Positions 6,788 to 64,000 of a DNA stretch of 64,000 nucleotides are shown one piece after another. The notes under the pieces are model-generated. The model was not told the origin of the DNA. It saw only the letters and a list, made by a program, of their open reading frames with translations, and did no database searches. Each line of letters starts with the position of its first letter. Position 1 is the stretch's first letter. The stretch spans positions 62,001 through 126,000 of the forward strand of contig JABJHR010000014.1 in the NCBI GenBank assembly GCA_018661705.1, written 5' to 3'. Source of the DNA: Candidatus Woesearchaeota archaeon. GTDB taxonomy: Archaea; Nanobdellota; Nanobdellia; Woesearchaeales; DSVV01. A program made the translations under genes and the position numbers.

Positions 6788-6937
6788 GCCTCCGTGGCTT
6801 AGCGGTACTTTACATAAGCAAAGGCTTGTGCAAAGCACTAGATAGCGCGGCATTGGTATATTTTGGACAAAGTACAAAATGCTTTGTTCCAAATAACAAA
6901 GATGCCGAGGTCCCGAGTTCAATTCTCGGCGGAGGCT
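6788..6937 (+). tRNA. tRNA-Thr (GGT) with two apparent introns
   Basis: Acceptor GCCTCCG pairs with CGGAGGC; T-arm CCGAG-TTCAATT-CTCGG; U73, usual for archaeal tRNA-Thr. The anticodon stem CGGCA/TGCCG encloses TTGGTA and A38, giving anticodon GGT, with a 43-nt intron at the canonical 37/38 site (about 6859-6901) that folds on itself (TTGGACAAAG against CTTTGTTCCAA). A second insertion of about 36 nt (about 6808-6843) interrupts the D-loop after AGCGGTA; it contains a strong hairpin (CATAAGC-AAAG-GCTTGTG). The D-stem becomes GCT/AGC once this is removed. Exact splice points of the D-loop insertion are not certain. Confidence 0.88.
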
Positions 6938-7016
6938 TTTATTGTCTATTTTCTAAATTTAAATTAGAATAAGTTGTAGTTAACAATCAACTTCAGTTTC
7001 CCATTCATGAATTAAT

Positions 7017-19652: not shown

Positions 19653-19798
19653 GATAGTAAATTCTATATTAAACTTAATAAACCCCATATTAAAAAAAAT
19701 AAATTTAATATTTGATTAGGTTAATTTTATATATCTCTTAGGTCTATCTATAAATTGGATACAATATCCTTCTAAATAGTTAATGCTAAGGTGTGGAA

Positions 19799-22700
19799 AT
19801 GGTAAAAAATCTATATACAAAAAAGGCTCTTGTTTTAATAGTTGTATTTCTCATGTTTACAATGTTATTAACAACAGCTGTTTCTGCCAAAACCATAAAA
19901 GAAAATAAATCAAACAAATTTTTGCAAGAATTATTATCAAAAGATAACGTTGAAATAATTAAAGGTTCCACTAATAAAGAATTAGATCAGCCATTAGATA
20001 AAAAAAAGGAAAAATCAAGCACATGGGAAAAAATACAAAAAGAAAAGCAAAAAGAAAAAGAAAAAATTAAAGCAAAGAAAGAAAAAGCAAAGAAAAAATT
20101 AAAAAAAGAGCAAGAAAAAGAGAAGAAAAGAATTGAATATGAAATTGAAAAAGCAAAACAAAGATTAGAAAAAAGATTAAAAGGAAAAAGATTAACTGCA
20201 GATGATCTGAAAAAGGCACTTGCTAAAAGCAGATTAATTGCAAAATTAAGAGCAGAACTATTTTTGTCTGATGATATTAAAGAAGCCATAATTGAAGAAA
20301 TAAAAGAAGAAACAGAATTTCTTGTAGATGAATTAAAGCAAATAAATGTAACCCCTGAAACAAAACCATCTTCAGTAACTCCAATCATCCCTGTTGTTGA
20401 GCCTGAGCCAGAACCATTAGATGTTGTGGATAAGAAAAAAAAGAAGAAAAGTGGTGGCGGAGGCGGTGGAAGTAGTTCAGCACCACCAAACAATCCAACA
20501 CCACCAACACCAACAAGTGTTGCTGGCTGTACAGACGAAAATTATTTAGAATATAATCCTGATGCAGAAGCAGACGATGGAAGCTGTGAAACACTTATTG
20601 TTTTAGGTTGCATGGATGCAGAAGCAGATAATTATAACGTAAATGCCAATAAAGACGATGATTCATGTGAATACTTAGGTTGCACAGATGCAAACGCAAA
20701 TAATTTTGATCCTAACGTTAACAAAGATGATAATTCATGCCAATATTTAGGATGTACAGATGAAGAAGCAGATAACTTTGATCCAACAGCCAATGTAAAT
20801 GATGGAAGCTGTGAATTTCTAGGATGTACAGATGCAAACGCAGACAACTTTGATCCAAACGCAAACAAAGATGATAATTCATGTTTATATTCTGGATGCA
20901 TGGATGAAGATGCAAATAATTTTGATCCACAAGCAAATGTCGACGATGACAGTTGCGAATATTTAGGATGTACAGATGTAAACGCAGATAACTTTGATCC
21001 AAACGCTAACGTTGATGATGAATCATGTCAATTTCTTGGATGCACAGATGTAAACGCAGATAATTTTGATGTAAACGCAAATGTAAATGATGGAAGTTGT
21101 GAATATTTAGGTTGCACTGATCCTGCTGCGAATAATTTTGATGAAAATGCAAATACCAATGATGGGAGCTGCACTTATGATATATTTGGTTGCATGGATC
21201 CCAATGCAAAAAATTTTAACCCATTTGCAAATGTCGATGATAATAGCTGCGAATATGATGTTCTTGGTTGTATGGATCCAAACGCAGACAACTTTGATGC
21301 AGAAGCAAATATTGATGATGATAGTTGTGAGTATTTAGGATGCATTAATCCAGAAGCGGATAATTTTGATGAAAATGCAAATGTAGATGATGGAAGTTGT
21401 CAATTTTCCGGATGTATGAATCCAAACGCAGATAACTTTGATCCAAACGCTAATGTAAATGATGGAAGCTGTGAATTTCTAGGATGTACAGATGCAAACG
21501 CAGACAACTTTGATCCTAACGCAAACAAAGATGATAATTCATGTTTATATTCTGGATGCATGGATGCAAACGCAAATAATTTTAATCCACAAGCAAATGT
21601 CGACGATGACAGTTGCGAATATTTGGGATGTACAGATGCAAACGCAGACAACTTTGATCCAAACGCTAACAAAGATGATAATTCATGTCAATATTTAGGA
21701 TGTACAGATCCTGAAGCATTTAATTTTGATCCTAACGCTAATGTAAATGATGGAAGTTGTATTGCAGTAATTGAAGGATGCATGGATGAAAATTATTTAG
21801 AATATGATGCAGATGCAAACACTAACAAAGAAGATATGTGTGTAACTTTAATTGTTTATGGGTGCACAGATCCAGATTATTTAGAGTATAATGCAAATGC
21901 TAATATCGACGATGAAAGTTGTGCCACATTAATTGTTGAAGGCTGCATGGATCAAGAAGCATTTAATTACAATCCATTAGCAAATACTGAAGACAACAGT
22001 TGTATTCCAGTAGTAGAAGGATGCATGGATCAAGAAGCATTTAATTACAATCCATTAGCAAATACTGAAGACAACAGTTGCGTTCCTGTAGTAGAAGGAT
22101 GCATGGATCAAGAAGCATTTAATTACAATCCATTAGCAAATACTGAAGACAACAGTTGTATTCCAGTAGTAGAAGGATGCACAGATGAAGAAGCATTTAA
22201 TTACAATCCATTAGCAAATACTGACGATGGAAATTGTATTCCGGTAGTAGAAGGATGCACAGATGAAGAAGCATTTAATTACAATCCATTAGCTAATACT
22301 GATGATGGTAGTTGTATTCCGGTAGTAGAAGGATGTATGGATGAAAATGCAAATAACTACAATCCTTTAGCAAATATTGATGATGACTCCTGCACTTATG
22401 ATATTCTTGGTTGCATGGATGAAGATGCAAATAATTACAATCCTTTAGCAAATATTGATGATGGTAGTTGCATTTCTGTTGTTAATGGATGCACAGACGA
22501 AGAGGCATTTAATTACAATCCATTAGCAAATACTGACGATGGTAGTTGCATTTCTGTTGTTAATGGATGCACAGACGAAGAGGCATTTAATTACAATCCA
22601 TTAGCAAATACTGACGATGGTAGTTGCATTCCTGTTATTAATGGATGCACAGATGAAGATGCTTTCAATTATAATCCTTTAGCAAATACGGATGATGGAA

Positions 22701-24448
22701 GTTGTATAGCAGTTGTTAATGGATGCACAGATGTAAATGCAAACAATTACAATGAAAATGCTAATGTTGATGACGACAGTTGCACTTATGATCTTCTTGG
22801 ATGTACAGATGCAAACGCAAACAACTTTAATCCATTAGCAAATGTGGATGATGGAACTTGTACGTATGACGTTGAAGGTTGCACAGATGCAAACGCCAAC
22901 AACTTTAATCCATTAGCAAATGTCGATGATGGAACTTGTACGTATGATGTTGAAGGATGCACAGATGCAAACGCCGATAACTTTAATCCAAACGCTAATG
23001 TCGATGACGGATCATGTATTTATTCTGGCTGTATGGATCAACTTGCATTAAATTATAATGCACAAGCAACAATTGATGACAACAGTTGTGAATATAAATA
23101 TCCTTGGCACGAAAATATTTTAACAACATATTTTTGGGTTGGTGAAGCACCAGGTGAAGAAAATAGTTGGGTAGATAATTTTGGGAGTGCTTGGGATAGT
23201 AAATGGATGGAACATTTTGGGGGAGTAGATGATCCTGATTGTAGAGACGGATATCATCCTTGCACATTTACCCCATTAGAAAATCCGTTTTATTGTGCTT
23301 TGCCTTATTCAGACTTTGACGACGAAGGACCAAAAGCAGACAGAGCAGATGTTGTCCCGTGGTTTGGTGATATTGAAAATGTAGACAACCAAAAATCAGT
23401 TATAAAAAACAGATGGATAAGAATTAAATTTAATGATGAATATGCATATTGTCAATGGAGCGATGCTGGTCCAGGAAGTAATGATGACACAGCTTATGTT
23501 TTTGGAGATTCTCAACCAGTTCATTGGGATGAAATTGGATTAGACACAAGTCCCGCCATCAGAGATTATTTAGGAATGGATGGGATGGACTTAGCAGACT
23601 GGCAATTTGTTGATGACCAAGATGTTCCAGACGGACCTTGGACAGACACCATAACAACAACAAGCACTTGCTGGATATATGGTGGAAGCCCTTGCCAAGA
23701 AGAAGACACATTGTTTAATCACAATGTAAATACTGTATTTAATAATGAAGCAAAAGACAGAAAATATTTTGTTTATGAACCAGCCGCATGTAAAAATGAA
23801 GATACTGATTGCCCATTATTATTTATGTTCCATGGTTTAGGAGGAACTGCTGCAGGCGTTACAGGAAACACTTATGGTTGGCAACAAACTGCAGATGATA
23901 ATAACTTTATGGTTGCATTTCCTGATTCATTAACTTTAGAAGCAAAAAACTTTGGAGATTTTTCAGATCCAGCGGGAAAACATTGGGATATAACTCCATT
24001 AATATTTTCAGAAACACAAGACACTAAATTTGTAGAAGAAATGATTACAGAAATTGATTCAATCTATGGGGTTGATGAAACAAAAATATTTACAACAGGC
24101 CATTCTTATGGGGGGTATTTTAGTTATTATCTAAACTTCGTATTAAATAATAAATTCAAGGCGTTTGGTAGCCATTCTGCAGGTTTAATTCCGTATGATA
24201 TTTTAGGATTTACAGTCTATTGGCCAGCTGAACCAAAAAACATATTACAAAATGGAAATACCCCTGCAATCATTATCCATTCCAGTGATGACACAATTGC
24301 CCCACCATTATTTGCAACAACTTTAGAATCACAAATGATTGCAAAACACCATATCCCAGTTCAAAGAATTGATCTAACAAACAAAAACCACAATTGGGAT
24401 AAAACTAAAAACCAAGTGCAATGGGATTTCTTTTTAGCAAATAGTTAA
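19799..24448 (+). CDS. Giant secreted protein: 34 Cys-Asp repeats plus C-terminal esterase
   Basis: About 1549 residues from the ATG at 19799 (AAGGTG five bases upstream; the ORF track uses a GTG two codons earlier). Order: signal peptide, a charged coiled-coil of K/E repeats (about 55-170), GGGGGGSSS/proline linker, 34 tandem units of GC(T/M)DxxAxNxxPxAxxDDxSC (about residues 243-1098), an aromatic-rich domain (YFWVGEAPGEENSW... QWSDAGPGSND) seen in secreted bacterial proteins, and a PHB-depolymerase/feruloyl-esterase-like alpha/beta hydrolase (FMFHGLGG; GHSYGGYFSYY; HSSDDTIAPP; NHNWD). Probably a long calcium-binding or disulfide-stiffened stalk carrying an extracellular esterase. Its stop overlaps the convergent gene by four bases. 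Confidence 0.85.
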   Translation: MVKNLYTKKALVLIVVFLMFTMLLTTAVSAKTIKENKSNKFLQELLSKDNVEIIKGSTNKELDQPLDKKKEKSSTWEKIQKEKQKEKEKIKAKKEKAKKKLKKEQEKEKKRIEYEIEKAKQRLEKRLKGKRLTADDLKKALAKSRLIAKLRAELFLSDDIKEAIIEEIKEETEFLVDELKQINVTPETKPSSVTPIIPVVEPEPEPLDVVDKKKKKKSGGGGGGSSSAPPNNPTPPTPTSVAGCTDENYLEYNPDAEADDGSCETLIVLGCMDAEADNYNVNANKDDDSCEYLGCTDANANNFDPNVNKDDNSCQYLGCTDEEADNFDPTANVNDGSCEFLGCTDANADNFDPNANKDDNSCLYSGCMDEDANNFDPQANVDDDSCEYLGCTDVNADNFDPNANVDDESCQFLGCTDVNADNFDVNANVNDGSCEYLGCTDPAANNFDENANTNDGSCTYDIFGCMDPNAKNFNPFANVDDNSCEYDVLGCMDPNADNFDAEANIDDDSCEYLGCINPEADNFDENANVDDGSCQFSGCMNPNADNFDPNANVNDGSCEFLGCTDANADNFDPNANKDDNSCLYSGCMDANANNFNPQANVDDDSCEYLGCTDANADNFDPNANKDDNSCQYLGCTDPEAFNFDPNANVNDGSCIAVIEGCMDENYLEYDADANTNKEDMCVTLIVYGCTDPDYLEYNANANIDDESCATLIVEGCMDQEAFNYNPLANTEDNSCIPVVEGCMDQEAFNYNPLANTEDNSCVPVVEGCMDQEAFNYNPLANTEDNSCIPVVEGCTDEEAFNYNPLANTDDGNCIPVVEGCTDEEAFNYNPLANTDDGSCIPVVEGCMDENANNYNPLANIDDDSCTYDILGCMDEDANNYNPLANIDDGSCISVVNGCTDEEAFNYNPLANTDDGSCISVVNGCTDEEAFNYNPLANTDDGSCIPVINGCTDEDAFNYNPLANTDDGSCIAVVNGCTDVNANNYNENANVDDDSCTYDLLGCTDANANNFNPLANVDDGTCTYDVEGCTDANANNFNPLANVDDGTCTYDVEGCTDANADNFNPNANVDDGSCIYSGCMDQLALNYNAQATIDDNSCEYKYPWHENILTTYFWVGEAPGEENSWVDNFGSAWDSKWMEHFGGVDDPDCRDGYHPCTFTPLENPFYCALPYSDFDDEGPKADRADVVPWFGDIENVDNQKSVIKNRWIRIKFNDEYAYCQWSDAGPGSNDDTAYVFGDSQPVHWDEIGLDTSPAIRDYLGMDGMDLADWQFVDDQDVPDGPWTDTITTTSTCWIYGGSPCQEEDTLFNHNVNTVFNNEAKDRKYFVYEPAACKNEDTDCPLLFMFHGLGGTAAGVTGNTYGWQQTADDNNFMVAFPDSLTLEAKNFGDFSDPAGKHWDITPLIFSETQDTKFVEEMITEIDSIYGVDETKIFTTGHSYGGYFSYYLNFVLNNKFKAFGSHSAGLIPYDILGFTVYWPAEPKNILQNGNTPAIIIHSSDDTIAPPLFATTLESQMIAKHHIPVQRIDLTNKNHNWDKTKNQVQWDFFLANS
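20525..23089 (+). repeat. 34-unit coding tandem repeat (about 72-84 bp per unit)
   Basis: I count 34 units, each with two cysteines and the core NxxPxAxxDDxSC. Units 20-22 (about 21950-22165) are almost identical at DNA level, differing by a few bases, as are units 27-28 (about 22487-22640) and 31-32. This indicates recent unequal recombination or slippage, so the unit number probably varies between strains. Antisense ORFs in this region are artefacts of the repeat composition. Confidence 0.92.
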
Positions 24449-45422: not shown

Positions 45423-45529
45423 GGGCTTGTAGCTCAGTCTGGTAGAGCACCGCCCTTGCAAGTTTAAGTAAGTGCAATTGCTTTACCAAAGACAGGCGGG
45501 GGCCTCGGGTTCGAATCCCGACGAGTCCA
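45423..45529 (+). tRNA. tRNA-Ala (TGC) with a 33-nt intron
   Basis: Acceptor GGGCTTG/CGAGTCC with A73, D-stem GCTC/GAGC, T-arm TCGGG-TTCGAAT-CCCGA. Anticodon stem CCGCC/GGCGG holds CTTGCA and A38, giving TGC. An intron of about 33 nt (45461-45493) sits at the canonical 37/38 position. The D-loop is normal. The place between 16S and 23S is standard for archaea, though an intron in this copy is less common. Confidence 0.92.
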
Positions 45530-53997: not shown

Positions 53998-54807
53998 TTA
54001 ACTACCATTAGTTATAGAATATAAATTATCGCAAGTTTCAAAGCTAGATTGTTGTAATTCCTGATATAAGCTTTGTGTTACTGACATTAATTCAAGCCTA
54101 TTTTGAATAAGAGCATTTGTATCATTTACAACCAAAGCAGTAATTGGATCAGAAGGTTGTGTTTCTATAAAGCCCATTACCTTTGATAACGCCTTTAAAT
54201 CACTTTGTAATGTACAAGTTATATTTTCCAGTAAATCAAGATATTGATGATTAGTTTCTCTAGCTAAATCACTCATTTCTTCAATATCACCTTCTTCGTG
54301 ATACTTTTGCATTAATTTATAGTTTGACTCAACTGTATCAAGAAGGGTTATTGCACTACGAACAGCATAAGCATGGCTTTCTCCAAGACCATTGTCATAT
54401 TCTTTTTCAAGAGTATCAAATATTTTGATATAACCTTGAAAATGTTCTGGTGCAACAGTTTCTGATTCCTGGCCTAAATCCAACAACAAATGAAGACTTT
54501 TAAATGAATCAATAAAATTACCAGAAGGCATCAAATAATCCACTATAATGTAATTTCTCATAGCATCTGACTCTTCTGTAAATATTTCCATTAAATCATT
54601 TGCTTGATGAGAAGGACCATATAAAGGATCATCTCCCACAACTAAATTCTCCCCATTATTAACTTCTGGCCCAGATAAAACTTCTTCTAATCGAAAATTT
54701 TGAGTTGAAGTATCATTTGGTTTAGTTATAACATAATCATCTTGAGCAAATGCACCACCAAGTATTAATCTCCCAACAATCCCTAACACAATTATAGTAT
54801 TATTCAT
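53998..54807 (-). CDS. Secreted protein of unknown function
   Basis: About 269 residues. Signal peptide (NNTIIVLGIVGRLILGGAFAQ) then a helical domain with no recognised motif, three cysteines and many acidic residues (CTLQSDLKALSKVMGF). I start at the ATG at 54807, since GGGGATGTG lies upstream and includes the GTG listed in the ORF track. It is probably extracellular or membrane-associated. Neighbours give no hint. Confidence 0.62.
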   Translation of the reverse strand: MNNTIIVLGIVGRLILGGAFAQDDYVITKPNDTSTQNFRLEEVLSGPEVNNGENLVVGDDPLYGPSHQANDLMEIFTEESDAMRNYIIVDYLMPSGNFIDSFKSLHLLLDLGQESETVAPEHFQGYIKIFDTLEKEYDNGLGESHAYAVRSAITLLDTVESNYKLMQKYHEEGDIEEMSDLARETNHQYLDLLENITCTLQSDLKALSKVMGFIETQPSDPITALVVNDTNALIQNRLELMSVTQSLYQELQQSSFETCDNLYSITNGS

Positions 54808-54913
54808 AAATATCACATCCCCATTATTATTTTTATTGTTATTATTTAAGAACTAGTAGATATTATAGATATATAAAAGAAAGTAGTAGCGGTAAGGACA
54901 ACATTAACCAAAA

Positions 54914-55285
54914 TTAAGGATTAGTTATTTCTTGGTATACTTTTTTTATTAAATCTATTATTATGTCAGGCATTGTATCTTCAAAAGTTTTTTCTCCAGG
55001 TATATTTTCCCCATCATAAAGTCCAACATAACTTAGTGTTTTTTCTTTATCAACTCCAACAATAAAAGTCCGGCCTTTTCTTTTACGCCACTCAAATCCA
55101 ATATCACCTGCGGGCTCGGGGCAAATATCCGGAGTTGGCACATCTTCAGGCAAAAGTTTAAGAAAAGATACTGCATATTGGTAAGTGACTTCATCTATTG
55201 GCTCAGCACCATAACCACCCCAGTTTGAAGATAAGCAATCCTTGTATACTTTTTCAAGCTCAGAAAGTGCTTTTTCTAATTCCAT
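54914..55285 (-). CDS. Small conserved hypothetical protein, bacterial-like
   Basis: 123 residues. The pattern SNWGGYGAEPIDEVTYQYAVSFLKLLPEDVPTPDICPEPAGDIGFEWRKRKGRTFIVGVD with LSYVGLYDG recalls a small family I know from bacterial genomes (NWDGYGA... FL..LP...P.P.....G.i.FEW), often near mobile or defence genes, with no assigned function. Here it stands alone. Probable lateral acquisition, but base composition matches the surroundings. Confidence 0.65.
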   Translation of the reverse strand: MELEKALSELEKVYKDCLSSNWGGYGAEPIDEVTYQYAVSFLKLLPEDVPTPDICPEPAGDIGFEWRKRKGRTFIVGVDKEKTLSYVGLYDGENIPGEKTFEDTMPDIIIDLIKKVYQEITNP

Positions 55286-55368: not shown

Positions 55369-57129
55369 TTACCTCAATTTAATATTCCTTGCCAAATGCC
55401 TCTTTATTTTAGGAAGTGAAGCATGGTTAACTAGTCTTATCATATCCCAAGGTTTAGCTTGCCAATTTCCTTTTGAGATATAATCACCAACATTAATTCT
55501 TTTTCTTACAGCCGCTAATAATATTGCATTTAGATCTCCTCCCCTTTTATATGCATCAAAAACAAAATCTCCTGCTGAAGTATCTCCTGTGTTTAAAACT
55601 CCTTCAAGAATATGAGGTGTTGGGTCAAATGAATTTAATTTGAATGAAATTTCCCTAGGAAGCTTTGCTCTAACAGCAGCGTTAAATTCTGCAGCAATAG
55701 CACTTAATTTATGAGGGCCAATCATACCAAACTCTTCAAACGGAGTTCCAGGATGTGGCATTAAAGGATACATATCAATTCTAATCTCTCCTCGGCCTTT
55801 ATGTTGCTTAAGTGTAGCTGCCGTTCTATGAATTAGATCAACATATTCCATTCTATCTGCAATTGTTTCTGTTGGAATTCCCACAATACAATACATTCTA
55901 ACTTCAGTAAATGCTTTTTCTGCAATAACTCTTTCAATATTAGGCATCATTTCTGCATTTTTAATTGTTTTAAGTAAGATTTTGTTTCTTAAAAAATCAC
56001 TTCCTGTTTCAGGAGCAATGTGTAAATATTCTTGATCTAAAAATTCTTCTATCTTATCAATATCATCTATTCTTACTGACCTAATAACTGGTTTTGCAGT
56101 TTTTAAGTTCGCTTTTGCCCATTCTAGAATTTCTTTAAGATCAGCAGGATCATAATTTGTTGAGGAAGCTCCTGCAAGAACAACTTTTTCAACACCCATA
56201 TCATCAAACTCTTGAAGATAACGCATAACTTGTTCTTTTGCATTTGATCTGTACTTCCCTCTAATGTTTGCCATCTGACAAAAACCACATTTGTATTTAC
56301 ACGAATAATCAATAAAAGCAAATGCTTCTTTTCCTTTCTTCATAATTAAACTTGCTCTTCTAAAATCAGGTAAATTACCAATTACTTGTTGTTCAACAAA
56401 ACCTTGAGAATTACCATTATAGATTACATCAACAAGTTCTCCAGCATCATTATATTTTCTTTCTGTAAATTCTGGAACATAAACACCAGGAATATCTGCA
56501 ACCAGATGTAATAATGTTTTTCTATCTTTTCCATTAGTTACTGATTGCCATGCTTCATATCTCTCTGCAATCCTCGGCATTGCTTCATCGCCATCACCAA
56601 TAACAAAAGCATCAACATAATTCTCAAAAGGAGCAGGATTTAAAACACCCATGTGTCCTGCAACAACTAAAGGTTGTCTTTGCTGTGTTTCATTTCTTTT
56701 TTTTCTTTCTTCTCTATTAACTGATAGCCCACTTAATTCTAACAAATTAAATAATCCCATAATTAAAGAAGGGTTTGAGATACTAACACCTAAAATATCT
56801 GCACTTGCAATGTTTTCATGAGAATATAATGTTTTTAATCCGTTTTGTTCTGCATCCGCCATTACATTTGGAAATGGCAGGTAACCAAAATCAACATTAA
56901 AAGAAGTTTGTCTAGCAACTTCATTTGCAACAATATGCATTCCTGAACCACGCCAAAACGCATAAGGAATATCTGGCATTGCCATAACCATGTTTAATCC
57001 ATCTGAGTTGTAACCCAATTTATCTTGTCTAAGGTCTGGACTAACTAAAAGCTTTTGTGTTAAGTTTTGATTATAAGTTTTTTGATCTGTTATTTCTCTC
57101 ACTATTTTCTCACCATACAATTTCTTCAT
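55369..57129 (-). CDS. Radical SAM protein with Rossmann-like N-terminal domain
   Basis: 586 residues. Cluster motif CKYKCGFC (CxxxCxxC) near residue 275 in the radical SAM barrel, followed by EFLDQEYLHIAPETGSDFLRNKI and GIPTETIADRMEY. The N-terminal 250 residues (LGVSISNPSLIMGLFNLLELSG, VAGHMGVLNPAPFENYVDAFVIGDGDEAMPRI) look like the B12-binding-type Rossmann domain of YgiQ/TIGR03960-like radical SAM enzymes, without an obvious DxHxxG base-off cobalamin site. The start overlaps the cyclic-nucleotide-binding gene by 20 bases, implying coupled translation. Substrate unknown. Confidence 0.85.
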   Translation of the reverse strand: MKKLYGEKIVREITDQKTYNQNLTQKLLVSPDLRQDKLGYNSDGLNMVMAMPDIPYAFWRGSGMHIVANEVARQTSFNVDFGYLPFPNVMADAEQNGLKTLYSHENIASADILGVSISNPSLIMGLFNLLELSGLSVNREERKKRNETQQRQPLVVAGHMGVLNPAPFENYVDAFVIGDGDEAMPRIAERYEAWQSVTNGKDRKTLLHLVADIPGVYVPEFTERKYNDAGELVDVIYNGNSQGFVEQQVIGNLPDFRRASLIMKKGKEAFAFIDYSCKYKCGFCQMANIRGKYRSNAKEQVMRYLQEFDDMGVEKVVLAGASSTNYDPADLKEILEWAKANLKTAKPVIRSVRIDDIDKIEEFLDQEYLHIAPETGSDFLRNKILLKTIKNAEMMPNIERVIAEKAFTEVRMYCIVGIPTETIADRMEYVDLIHRTAATLKQHKGRGEIRIDMYPLMPHPGTPFEEFGMIGPHKLSAIAAEFNAAVRAKLPREISFKLNSFDPTPHILEGVLNTGDTSAGDFVFDAYKRGGDLNAILLAAVRKRINVGDYISKGNWQAKPWDMIRLVNHASLPKIKRHLARNIKLR

Positions 57130-59497
57130 TTTTATTATATGAAAATGCTAAAAATAATCCAACTGCAATAAAGTCAGCTGCTAAACCTTTTCCCATTTCT
57201 TGATAATGTGGCTGTTCAAAAACTTGATTATAAGCAGCAACAACTCTTTGATTTAAATCTCCAGAAGTATTTTGAATTACGTCATAAACTTTTCTAATGT
57301 CTGGAAAACCTTGAACAAATTGTCTGTTATGAACAATTGAATTTAAATTTTTGGAATCTTCTGCATCTTTTAATTCTGCAGCATAATAATCAAAAACATT
57401 AGTAACCGGATGCATACCAACATTTCTTTCAACTCTACTTAAGATATATGCAAACTGTTTCATATTAATTAAGGATGAAACATCTTCTTCAGTTGTATTT
57501 TGTAATAATTCTGTTGCCTTATCAAATAAAAAATCAACAGGTTTCTCACAATAAGGATCACAAATTGCCATTGTTGCAATTAATGGAAATCCAAACTCAA
57601 TAATTCCTTGATTAAGTCTGCCCCCTCTTCTATTTAATTTACTAAGCACTTGCATGTTATAACACGCATCATAAAGTAATCCTGGTTGTTTAATATCTTG
57701 ACCTTCTTCACAAGTTTTACCGTGTTTTTTTTGATAGTTCTCAACTCTTGATAACAATTCAAAGATTGCAGGACCCATATTAACTCCAGCAACAACAAAC
57801 TGATCTAATTTTTGAAACTGAGATAAATCCCAATATCTTGTTGTACAACCTTCTTTATTAAATAAAGGTTCAAGTGCACATGCTTTTTGAAAATCAACCG
57901 CAACTTGCGCCATTGTTGTTCGAAAACCTTTTACAATAATTCCTGCAAAAGTTTGGTTTACAATTTCATTAATACCAGGAGTTGCTTGATAAACATTTAA
58001 ATCTACAAATTTATGATCTGTTTCTGTATCTTGAGATAATTTAATTTGTTTTTCTTTTGCATATGCTTTAACAGCTTCAATTTTATTTTGTCCGAGTTTT
58101 ATTCCTGTTTCATTGTTAAGTGCAGCCTCTTGTTCAATTGCTTTGTAGTATAGTTGAATTGCCAATTCACAATCTACTTTTGTAATTTTTCTTGTAGGAT
58201 GTTGAGCAAGAATCATATCTCCTAGTGTCAAGTAATGCTCAGAAGAAGATTCTGCTTTTTCCATGATATCAGTTAAAAATTTCCTATTTCTATAAATATG
58301 TTCGGGATTCCATTTTCCAAAATAAAGCATCCCAGCTAATAATCCTTTATTCATCATACGATCTCGAAGTTTTGCATAATCTTCTGTTTGAAAATCTAAT
58401 ATTTCAAATAATTGTGGATCTATTTTATAACACATATCGGCTTTTACTAAGGATTCATAAGCTGTCCTAAGATTTTCCATTCTATTTGCAAATGGTTTTC
58501 TTGTAAATCTTGTATGGCCTGGACCACTTTCATTTGCATGAATTGCTGCTGTCATCAAAGTAGTAGCATCCCCCACTGCATATTCAAGTGAATTCATTAT
58601 TTTTCCAACAGAGGTAACTTTTTTGTCTTCAAATGGAACTTTAAAATTAAATATACCTGATTCATGTGCTTGAAGATGTGCGTAAGTATGACGTCCTAAT
58701 GATAATTCAATTCTTTCAATAGAATTTCCTTTTTCAACTTGTTCTGCAGCCCATCTAAGAAATCCATTTGTGTTATCAATAAATTTAACTCTTGATCTCA
58801 TTATGTTAACAACATAAGTCATTAATGCCATTGCTCTAGGCAAATTTGTTTCATCATAAATCATATCTTGAAATTCTTCACTAGAAACATAGTTTACTTT
58901 AACTTCATCTTTTGCATACAAACTTGCACTTCTTACATTCCCATCAATAATTGCCATTTCACCAAAAATATTTCCTGATCCTAAGGTTGCAATTTTTTTA
59001 TTTCCAGATCTTTCTTCAAGAATAACATCAACTTCTCCTTTTTCAATAATGTAAATTGCCTCTCCGGGATCACCTTGTCTAAATATTCTTTGTCTTGGTT
59101 CAAAGGTTGTAGAATGTGCAAATAACATTTCTGCTATTTCCTCTAACGCCCCTTTTAATTCTTCCTGGGTTGGTTCATCTGTAAATTCTTTTTCATGTTC
59201 TACTGTTTGATCTGATAATAACCAAGCTTTAGAAACAATATTTCTACTAATAGTTCCTTTTTCAATTAATTCTAATAACTCAGAATGTTCTGCATTAATT
59301 CCCCTAAGCAATTTTGGAAAACTTTGATATTCCTGTTTTAGAAGTAAATATTCTTCTATTAATCTAGAATCATCTAATACTTCTTCTAATCTAAAAGTTA
59401 AAGATGGTAAATCACCAACCCTAGTATATTGTGTAAGTTTCTCTAAAACAAGATCACTTAAACTACCATTTTCAGATAATTGAATTACTTTCCCCAT
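57110..59497 (-). CDS. Cyclic-nucleotide-binding domain protein with large unknown C-terminus
   Basis: About 795 residues from the ATG at 59497 (MGKVIQLSENG; TATA-like TTTATAAATG some 24-30 bases upstream). A CAP-family cNMP-binding domain lies at about 130-235: IFRQGDPGEAIYIIEKGEVDVIL and phosphate cassette FGEMAIIDGNVRSAS with its conserved Arg. N-terminal 120 residues are helical. The remaining 550 residues match nothing I recognise, but contain conserved-looking stretches (HTRFTRKPFANRMENL, RWAAEQVEKG, LSKLNRRGGRLNQGIIEFG, AICDPYCEKPVDFLF). Coupled to the radical SAM gene by a 20-base overlap. Cyclic nucleotide signalling in archaea is little known, so this pair stands out. Confidence 0.78.
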   Translation of the reverse strand: MGKVIQLSENGSLSDLVLEKLTQYTRVGDLPSLTFRLEEVLDDSRLIEEYLLLKQEYQSFPKLLRGINAEHSELLELIEKGTISRNIVSKAWLLSDQTVEHEKEFTDEPTQEELKGALEEIAEMLFAHSTTFEPRQRIFRQGDPGEAIYIIEKGEVDVILEERSGNKKIATLGSGNIFGEMAIIDGNVRSASLYAKDEVKVNYVSSEEFQDMIYDETNLPRAMALMTYVVNIMRSRVKFIDNTNGFLRWAAEQVEKGNSIERIELSLGRHTYAHLQAHESGIFNFKVPFEDKKVTSVGKIMNSLEYAVGDATTLMTAAIHANESGPGHTRFTRKPFANRMENLRTAYESLVKADMCYKIDPQLFEILDFQTEDYAKLRDRMMNKGLLAGMLYFGKWNPEHIYRNRKFLTDIMEKAESSSEHYLTLGDMILAQHPTRKITKVDCELAIQLYYKAIEQEAALNNETGIKLGQNKIEAVKAYAKEKQIKLSQDTETDHKFVDLNVYQATPGINEIVNQTFAGIIVKGFRTTMAQVAVDFQKACALEPLFNKEGCTTRYWDLSQFQKLDQFVVAGVNMGPAIFELLSRVENYQKKHGKTCEEGQDIKQPGLLYDACYNMQVLSKLNRRGGRLNQGIIEFGFPLIATMAICDPYCEKPVDFLFDKATELLQNTTEEDVSSLINMKQFAYILSRVERNVGMHPVTNVFDYYAAELKDAEDSKNLNSIVHNRQFVQGFPDIRKVYDVIQNTSGDLNQRVVAAYNQVFEQPHYQEMGKGLAADFIAVGLFLAFSYNKNEEIVW

Positions 59498-63852: not shown

Positions 63853-63959
63853 GGACCTGTGGCCCAGTCTGGAAAGTTCATCTTGGACAAATAGGGCGAT
63901 TGCCTCCTACATATTTTGAAGAAAGCAATAGGTCGGGAGTTCGAATCTCCCCAGGTCCG
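63853..63959 (+). tRNA. tRNA-Arg (CCT) with two apparent introns
   Basis: Acceptor GGACCTG/CAGGTCC, G73; D-stem GCCC/GGGC; T-arm GGGAG-TTCGAAT-CTCCC. Anticodon stem ATTGC/GCAAT encloses CTCCTA and A38, giving CCT, with a short 14-nt insertion at 37/38 (63910-63923). A second insertion of about 18 nt sits in the D-loop after AGTCTGGA (about 63874-63891), containing GTTC-ATCTT-GGAC. It resembles the D-loop insertion of tRNA-Thr at 6788. Exact splice points uncertain. Confidence 0.85.
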
Positions 63960-64000
63960 TTTATTTTTTCTATTTCTTGTTGTTCTTTCTACTACTACAC

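Follow-up and report, generated by a model that had tools for sequence, protein, structure and literature searches.

A 64,000-nucleotide stretch of contig JABJHR010000014.1 (positions 62,001 to 126,000; hereafter the window) from a Candidatus Woesearchaeota archaeon carries two adjacent genes, which we call A and B, that bring together a cyclic nucleotide (cNMP)-binding domain, an enzyme-like domain and a radical S-adenosylmethionine (SAM) protein. In gene A, the cNMP-binding domain is fused to a C-terminal domain that, judged by its sequence profiles, is a divergent branch of the CitG superfamily; gene B encodes the radical SAM protein. We favor the reading, with a probability of about 0.4, that gene A encodes a cyclic-nucleotide-responsive enzyme of ribosyl-transfer type that, together with its radical SAM partner, processes a small molecule of nucleotide origin. 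The domain identities in both genes are firm; the chemistry (ribosyl transfer), the ligand (a cyclic nucleotide) and a pathway shared by A and B are what we infer. Both open reading frames were confirmed on the minus strand of this 1.65 Mb archaeal genome, where a preliminary description made from the letters of the window had placed them, and comprise the following features.

57110..59497, minus strand: gene A, open reading frame of 795 residues from ATG 59497 (809 residues if TTG 59539 is taken)
59120..59497, minus strand: N-terminal ~125 residues of gene A, predicted helical, orphan
58859..59107, minus strand: cNMP-binding domain of gene A (PF00027), Pfam match
58922..58966, minus strand: phosphate-binding cassette FGEMAIIDGNVRSAS, with Glu180 and Arg189 (795-residue numbering)
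57890..58828, minus strand: middle ~305 residues of gene A, orphan, mostly helical
57116..57907, minus strand: CitG-superfamily-like C-terminal domain of gene A, all-helical, ~265 residues, from sequence profiles
57110..57114, minus strand: GGTGA, containing the gene A stop codon, likely Shine-Dalgarno sequence of gene B
55369..57102, minus strand: gene B, radical SAM, 577 residues from GTG 57102 (586 residues if ATG 57129)
56473..56943, minus strand: Radical_SAM_N2 domain of gene B (PF19864, E 7.6e-26), Rossmann-like
56278..56301, minus strand: CKYKCGFC, the CX3CX2C iron-sulfur motif in the radical SAM core of gene B

CitG is an ATP:dephospho-CoA triphosphoribosyl transferase, which joins the ribose of ATP to a hydroxyl of dephospho-CoA and releases adenine. 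A search of the phylum with gene A showed that residues ~545-808 occur in other genomes, alone or in other fusions, at 27-49% identity. The domain aligned over its full length with 15 relatives (22-40% identity), and in the resulting 16-member alignment the window copy has all 11 invariant and 13 near-invariant columns. Matched individually, 12 of 13 family members hit PF01874 (CitG), with a best E of 7.6e-12; among the relatives at loci L021, L023 and L020 the values were 6.6e-11, 1.4e-6 and 2.5e-5, and the 27-bit cut-off of the model was exceeded by L021 (42.8) and L023 (28.6). The best PDB match of the family profile, at E values of 2e-5 to 3e-5, was 3h9p, annotated as "putative triphosphoribosyl-dephospho-CoA synthase"; a profile built from six members gave 2e-5. 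Like CitG and MdcB (PF01874), the family is an all-helical domain of ~260 residues, its Glu-(n)-Lys-x-Gly aligns with the CitG E...PKPG in the profile alignment, and its N..G and (G)xAD motifs resemble those of CitG by eye. Unlike them, it is missing the histidine of the CitG NTHKG motif, its window copy is fused to a cNMP domain, and neither of the CitG partners, the phosphoribosyl-dephospho-CoA transferase (CitX/MdcG) and the acyl carrier protein, was recognized among the window neighbors. No canonical PF01874 protein reached the search threshold in 343 genomes of the phylum, in a six-frame search that is insensitive, as divergent members do occur there.

To place the domain in context, we scanned 84,980 species and found ten loci carrying it, in Woesearchaeota, Parcubacteria, Moranbacteria, Bdellovibrionales and Bacilli; a class-level search contributed four further loci in Paceibacteria. 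The commonest architecture, present in nine genomes, joins an HD hydrolase and the CitG-like domain in one protein of 485-547 residues, and in three more genomes (L020, L076 and L077) a separate HD gene adjoins the CitG-like domain. HD was assigned by Pfam for two proteins and by the HD motif for the rest, including L076 and L077. The fusions from Woesearchaeota, Paceibacteria and Bdellovibrionales have the same C-terminal domain as gene A (35-40% identical, all conserved positions in common), but they begin with an HD hydrolase, whereas in gene A no HD domain is detectable and the shared domain is preceded by a cNMP domain and the orphan middle. An HD domain hidden in the gene A middle was also considered and rejected, as an hhalign comparison with the HD portions taken from six fusions gave a probability of 0.2%. 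In two Paceibacteria loci, L070 and L097, the HD/CitG-like gene lies among genes identified by Pfam as nadA, nadC, NAD kinase, nicotinate phosphoribosyltransferase (NAPRTase) and ADP-ribosylglycohydrolase. Elsewhere the CitG-like domain is fused to a sugar-phosphate nucleotidyltransferase-like domain (L021), its gene overlaps a B12-type radical SAM gene by 4 bases (L079), or it follows a radical SAM gene and an HD gene in one operon (L020). Taken together, the fusions and neighborhoods suggest a role in nucleotide or coenzyme metabolism. Of about 19 loci, 3 have the CitG-like gene next to a radical SAM gene; a back-of-envelope estimate predicts roughly 0.5 if ~1.3% of genes are radical SAM, and the excess is suggestive only. 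Nothing on an HD/CitG-like family was found in the literature searched, and the family, spread over Woesearchaeota, Patescibacteria, Bdellovibrionales and Bacilli, is apparently undescribed. At a further Paceibacteria locus, L098, only a C-terminal CitG-like fragment is left, in a setting that resembles the NAD clusters of L070 and L097.

The cNMP-binding domain of gene A was described beforehand as having a complete cassette with its conserved Arg, and this was borne out: the PF00027 match in gene A has 68.8 bits (E 4e-19), far over the 27.5-bit cut-off, with 73.7 bits when scored at genome level, and FGEMAIIDGNVRSAS was found within it. The best PDB matches were cNMP domains of the PKA/PKG type, with CRP also matched, and the cassette aligns with the FGE...R(S/T)A cassettes of the PKA/PKG structures, keeping Gly-Glu and Arg-Ser-Ala. 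Since the phosphate-binding cassette is intact, binding of a cyclic nucleotide is plausible. Gene A is the sole PF00027 match in its genome, and other members of the order have cNMP domains in small proteins of ~160-190 residues; the domain is thus rare in the order, not unique. It is locally true, as noted earlier, that no cyclase lies nearby, but the genome does encode a CYTH protein whose 46.1-bit score with the class IV adenylate cyclase model does not reach the curated threshold of 57.95 bits; this protein is the only candidate source of cAMP found there. A family 2B encapsulin was rejected as an identity for gene A, the NCBIfam match being weak and confined to the cNMP part. In two genera of the order, a small stand-alone cNMP-binding gene overlaps an AI-2E family transporter gene by 4 bases (L067:6537-8065 and L068:6089-7632), which looks like a cNMP-regulated transporter pair.

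The two genes had been thought to overlap by 20 bases. That overlap requires gene B to start at ATG 57129, which has no Shine-Dalgarno sequence, whereas GTG 57102 has GGTGA 7 nt upstream. Such 5-mers of Shine-Dalgarno type precede 7 of the 45 window genes (16%, one window-edge artefact being left out of the count) compared with 1.9% of random positions, and the aligned homologues of gene B begin near the residue encoded by GTG 57102. For these three reasons we take GTG 57102 as the better start; the spacing is then probably a 7-nt gap, and the overlap an artefact of start-codon choice. The coupling itself stands: a gap of ~7 nt together with a Shine-Dalgarno sequence formed partly by the end of gene A implies translational coupling.

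Gene B proved to be, as first proposed, a radical SAM protein with a Rossmann-like N-terminal domain (PF19864 followed by PF04055, the latter with E 1e-13 and 52 bits against a cut-off of 29.5). In its architecture it is like the radical SAM enzymes of B12 type or MiaB type. C277, C281 and C284 are invariant across 7 homologues. Residues 45-534 match the TIGR03960 type of radical SAM protein (Radical_SAM_N2, PF19864) with the same two-domain order (E 6.5e-49), but the score of 166.9 bits is far below the cut-off of 462.3. The AlphaFold model of gene B (pTM 0.79) found its nearest solved folds among MgmA, AprD4, CysS, MiaB and TsrM (Foldseek E 2e-11 to 3e-7). Compared with the B12-type and methylthiotransferase enzymes MgmA, CysS, TsrM and MiaB, however, TM-scores were only 0.36-0.57 at 12-15% identity, and the cobalamin-binding DxHxxG motif was not seen in gene B by eye. 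Gene B probably acts as a modifying enzyme on a small molecule, peptide or RNA.

Its nearest relatives, at 35-36% identity, come from a single family of the order, in which three genomes carry them. At all three loci an MBL-fold hydrolase gene is followed by B and then by an IucA/IucC-like synthetase gene, with no gene A homologue; at one of them, a gene with an HD_5 domain comes next on the opposite strand. This conserved operon of MBL-fold hydrolase, B-type radical SAM and IucA/IucC-like (siderophore-synthetase-like) protein (L053:9283-14721, L054:7144-11002 and L055:7602-11450) is a possible small-molecule pathway of DPANN archaea, and near it lie a divergent double Lrp/AsnC regulator and a ~550-residue protein, which in L053 consists by Pfam of a TIM barrel plus an AAA kinase. 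More distant relatives of B were seen in two different families (L056:7197-12189 and L060:7827-12741), each time within the same conserved cluster of five genes, composed of NUDIX, thymidylate-kinase-like, B-like radical SAM, amidohydrolase and second radical SAM genes, the last with a SPASM domain in L056.

In the reading we favor, the cNMP domain occupies the place of the HD hydrolase that is usually paired with the CitG-like domain, and a cyclic nucleotide bound there would switch the CitG-like domain. With ATP or a related nucleotide as donor, the latter would then attach a (phospho)ribosyl unit to a hydroxyl of an acceptor nucleotide and release the base in the manner of CitG. Gene B shares its message with gene A, and its product would handle the same nucleotide-derived molecule at an earlier or a later step. 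Because the CitG-like enzyme is itself fused to the cNMP domain, control by a cyclic nucleotide is likelier to bear on it than on the separate gene B. In a fuller version, this cNMP-gated ribosyltransferase and its radical SAM partner make or remodel a nucleotide-type cofactor, and the enzyme is part of a wider HD/CitG-like family that serves NAD-type nucleotide metabolism in Patescibacteria and Woesearchaeota; coenzyme chemistry in a DPANN archaeon would then be under the direct control of a second-messenger switch. This version is unlikely as a whole. The usual targets of cNMP domains are transcription factors, channels and kinases; a cNMP domain fused to a CitG-like enzyme would control coenzyme or nucleotide chemistry in an unusual way, in an archaeal group whose signaling is almost unknown. 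Of more general interest is the HD/CitG-like family, whose linkage to NAD genes in Paceibacteria makes its function testable.

Several results weigh against this reading. The window copy is alone among the 13 family members in having no PF01874 match, and its superfamily membership is judged from its 35-40% identity to members that do match. Profile comparison with genuine bacterial CitG/MdcB was not significant, the single short aligned stretch being in the expected register, and no NCBIfam CitG/MdcB model matched; because of both negatives, the domain is filed as a divergent branch of the superfamily and not as CitG proper. A PDB fold search with the model of the whole gene A product gave nothing usable and did not return CitG, so that the assignment leans on sequence profiles. 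The NAD-cluster context comes from bacteria with the HD form and not from the window archaeon, and the radical SAM proteins that adjoin the domain in L079 and L020 belong to other subfamilies that are not close to gene B. The genome has no class III cyclase match, and no confident cyclase was found there. Finally, no genome but that of the window archaeon has full-length gene A, in a search of all 353 genomes of the order, and A and B were seen as a pair in this single genome. Their pairing thus lacks conservation: the architecture is real but a singleton. Of the second-messenger-controlled radical SAM system suggested in the preliminary description, what survives is an archaeal cNMP-binding protein whose gene is closely coupled to that of a radical SAM protein; as a system it is unsupported, and the claim is weak. 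The neighborhood conservation proposed there as a check failed, with no full-length A in the order and other neighbors beside the B orthologues; loss of ligand binding, named alongside it as telling against the system, is not suggested by the intact cassette.

That singleton status is what would be expected if A and B were independent accessory genes of unrelated pathways, co-transcribed in this genome only, and the B orthologues in three genomes do lack A and have an MBL hydrolase and an IucA/IucC-like synthetase as neighbors. We nevertheless regard such a chance neighborhood as somewhat unlikely, given the coupling implied by the ~7 nt spacing and the Shine-Dalgarno sequence drawn from the end of A, and given that CitG-like genes adjoin radical SAM genes in two other genomes, although this excess is modest and roughly estimated. 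The lack of a confident cyclase in the genome speaks for a different alternative, in which the cNMP domain is structural (for dimerization or docking) or binds another ligand, and the CitG-like domain is constitutive or governed by the orphan middle. CRP-fold domains that bind no cyclic nucleotide are common, but the Glu and Arg of the cassette, which are usually lost in non-binders, are kept here with PKA/PKG-like flanks, and we hold this explanation to be rather unlikely.

Very improbable, in our judgment, is an immunity-like sensor-effector of Pycsar type, in which a cyclic nucleotide would turn on the CitG-like domain to consume ATP or NAD. Gene A does resemble Pycsar effectors in fusing a cNMP sensor to a putative nucleotide-using domain, PADLOC models of Pycsar effectors match its cNMP part (PycTIR 5e-10), and in other genomes NAD genes accompany the CitG-like domain. 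The PADLOC matches, however, are limited to the generic cNMP domain, and unlike in Pycsar the effector domain is from another family and there is no pyrimidine cyclase partner. Gene A has no cyclase gene next to it, the genome lacks a class III cyclase, nothing defense-like was recognized nearby, and searches of phages, plasmids and viral contigs gave no related domain. A viral, phage or plasmid origin for the genes was likewise rejected, with the CitG-like domain unmatched in those collections and the composition of A and B, in G+C content (GC) and G+C content at third codon positions (GC3), the same as that of neighboring genes.

Upstream of the gene A start at ATG 59497 lies, by eye, a TATA-like A/T-rich tract, and the product runs from an N-terminal helical region through the cNMP-binding domain and the orphan middle to the CitG-like C-terminal domain. 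The preliminary description counted about 550 residues of unknown sequence; ~265 of these are now the CitG-superfamily domain, while the ~305-residue middle is still orphan. A pattern search of the 84,980 species, which reaches close relatives only, found no relatives of the middle, and neither relatives among genomes of the order nor a confident Pfam match were found for it. The N-terminal ~125 residues had no relatives and no significant Pfam match, and their helices are of low confidence in the AlphaFold model. That model, of the whole product, has a pLDDT of ~80-98 across most of the CitG-like domain and is poor elsewhere, except for one confident TPR-like helical stretch in the middle (model residues ~440-490, pLDDT ~82-90).

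Downstream of B on the same strand are orphan genes at 54914-55285 (123 residues) and 53998-54816 (272 residues, secreted-looking), neither with a confident Pfam match. Elsewhere in the window, a 107-base Rfam tRNA at 45423-45529, apparently containing an intron, lies between the 16S and 23S genes, and two tRNA-like sequences at 6788-6960 and 63853-63960 also appear by eye to contain introns, their end coordinates being approximate; ARAGORN with bacterial settings reported none of the three. At 19793-24448 the window encodes a secreted-looking protein of 1551 residues, in which dozens of GCTD-A-NYNP-AN-DDGSC repeats are followed by an esterase-like C-terminus.

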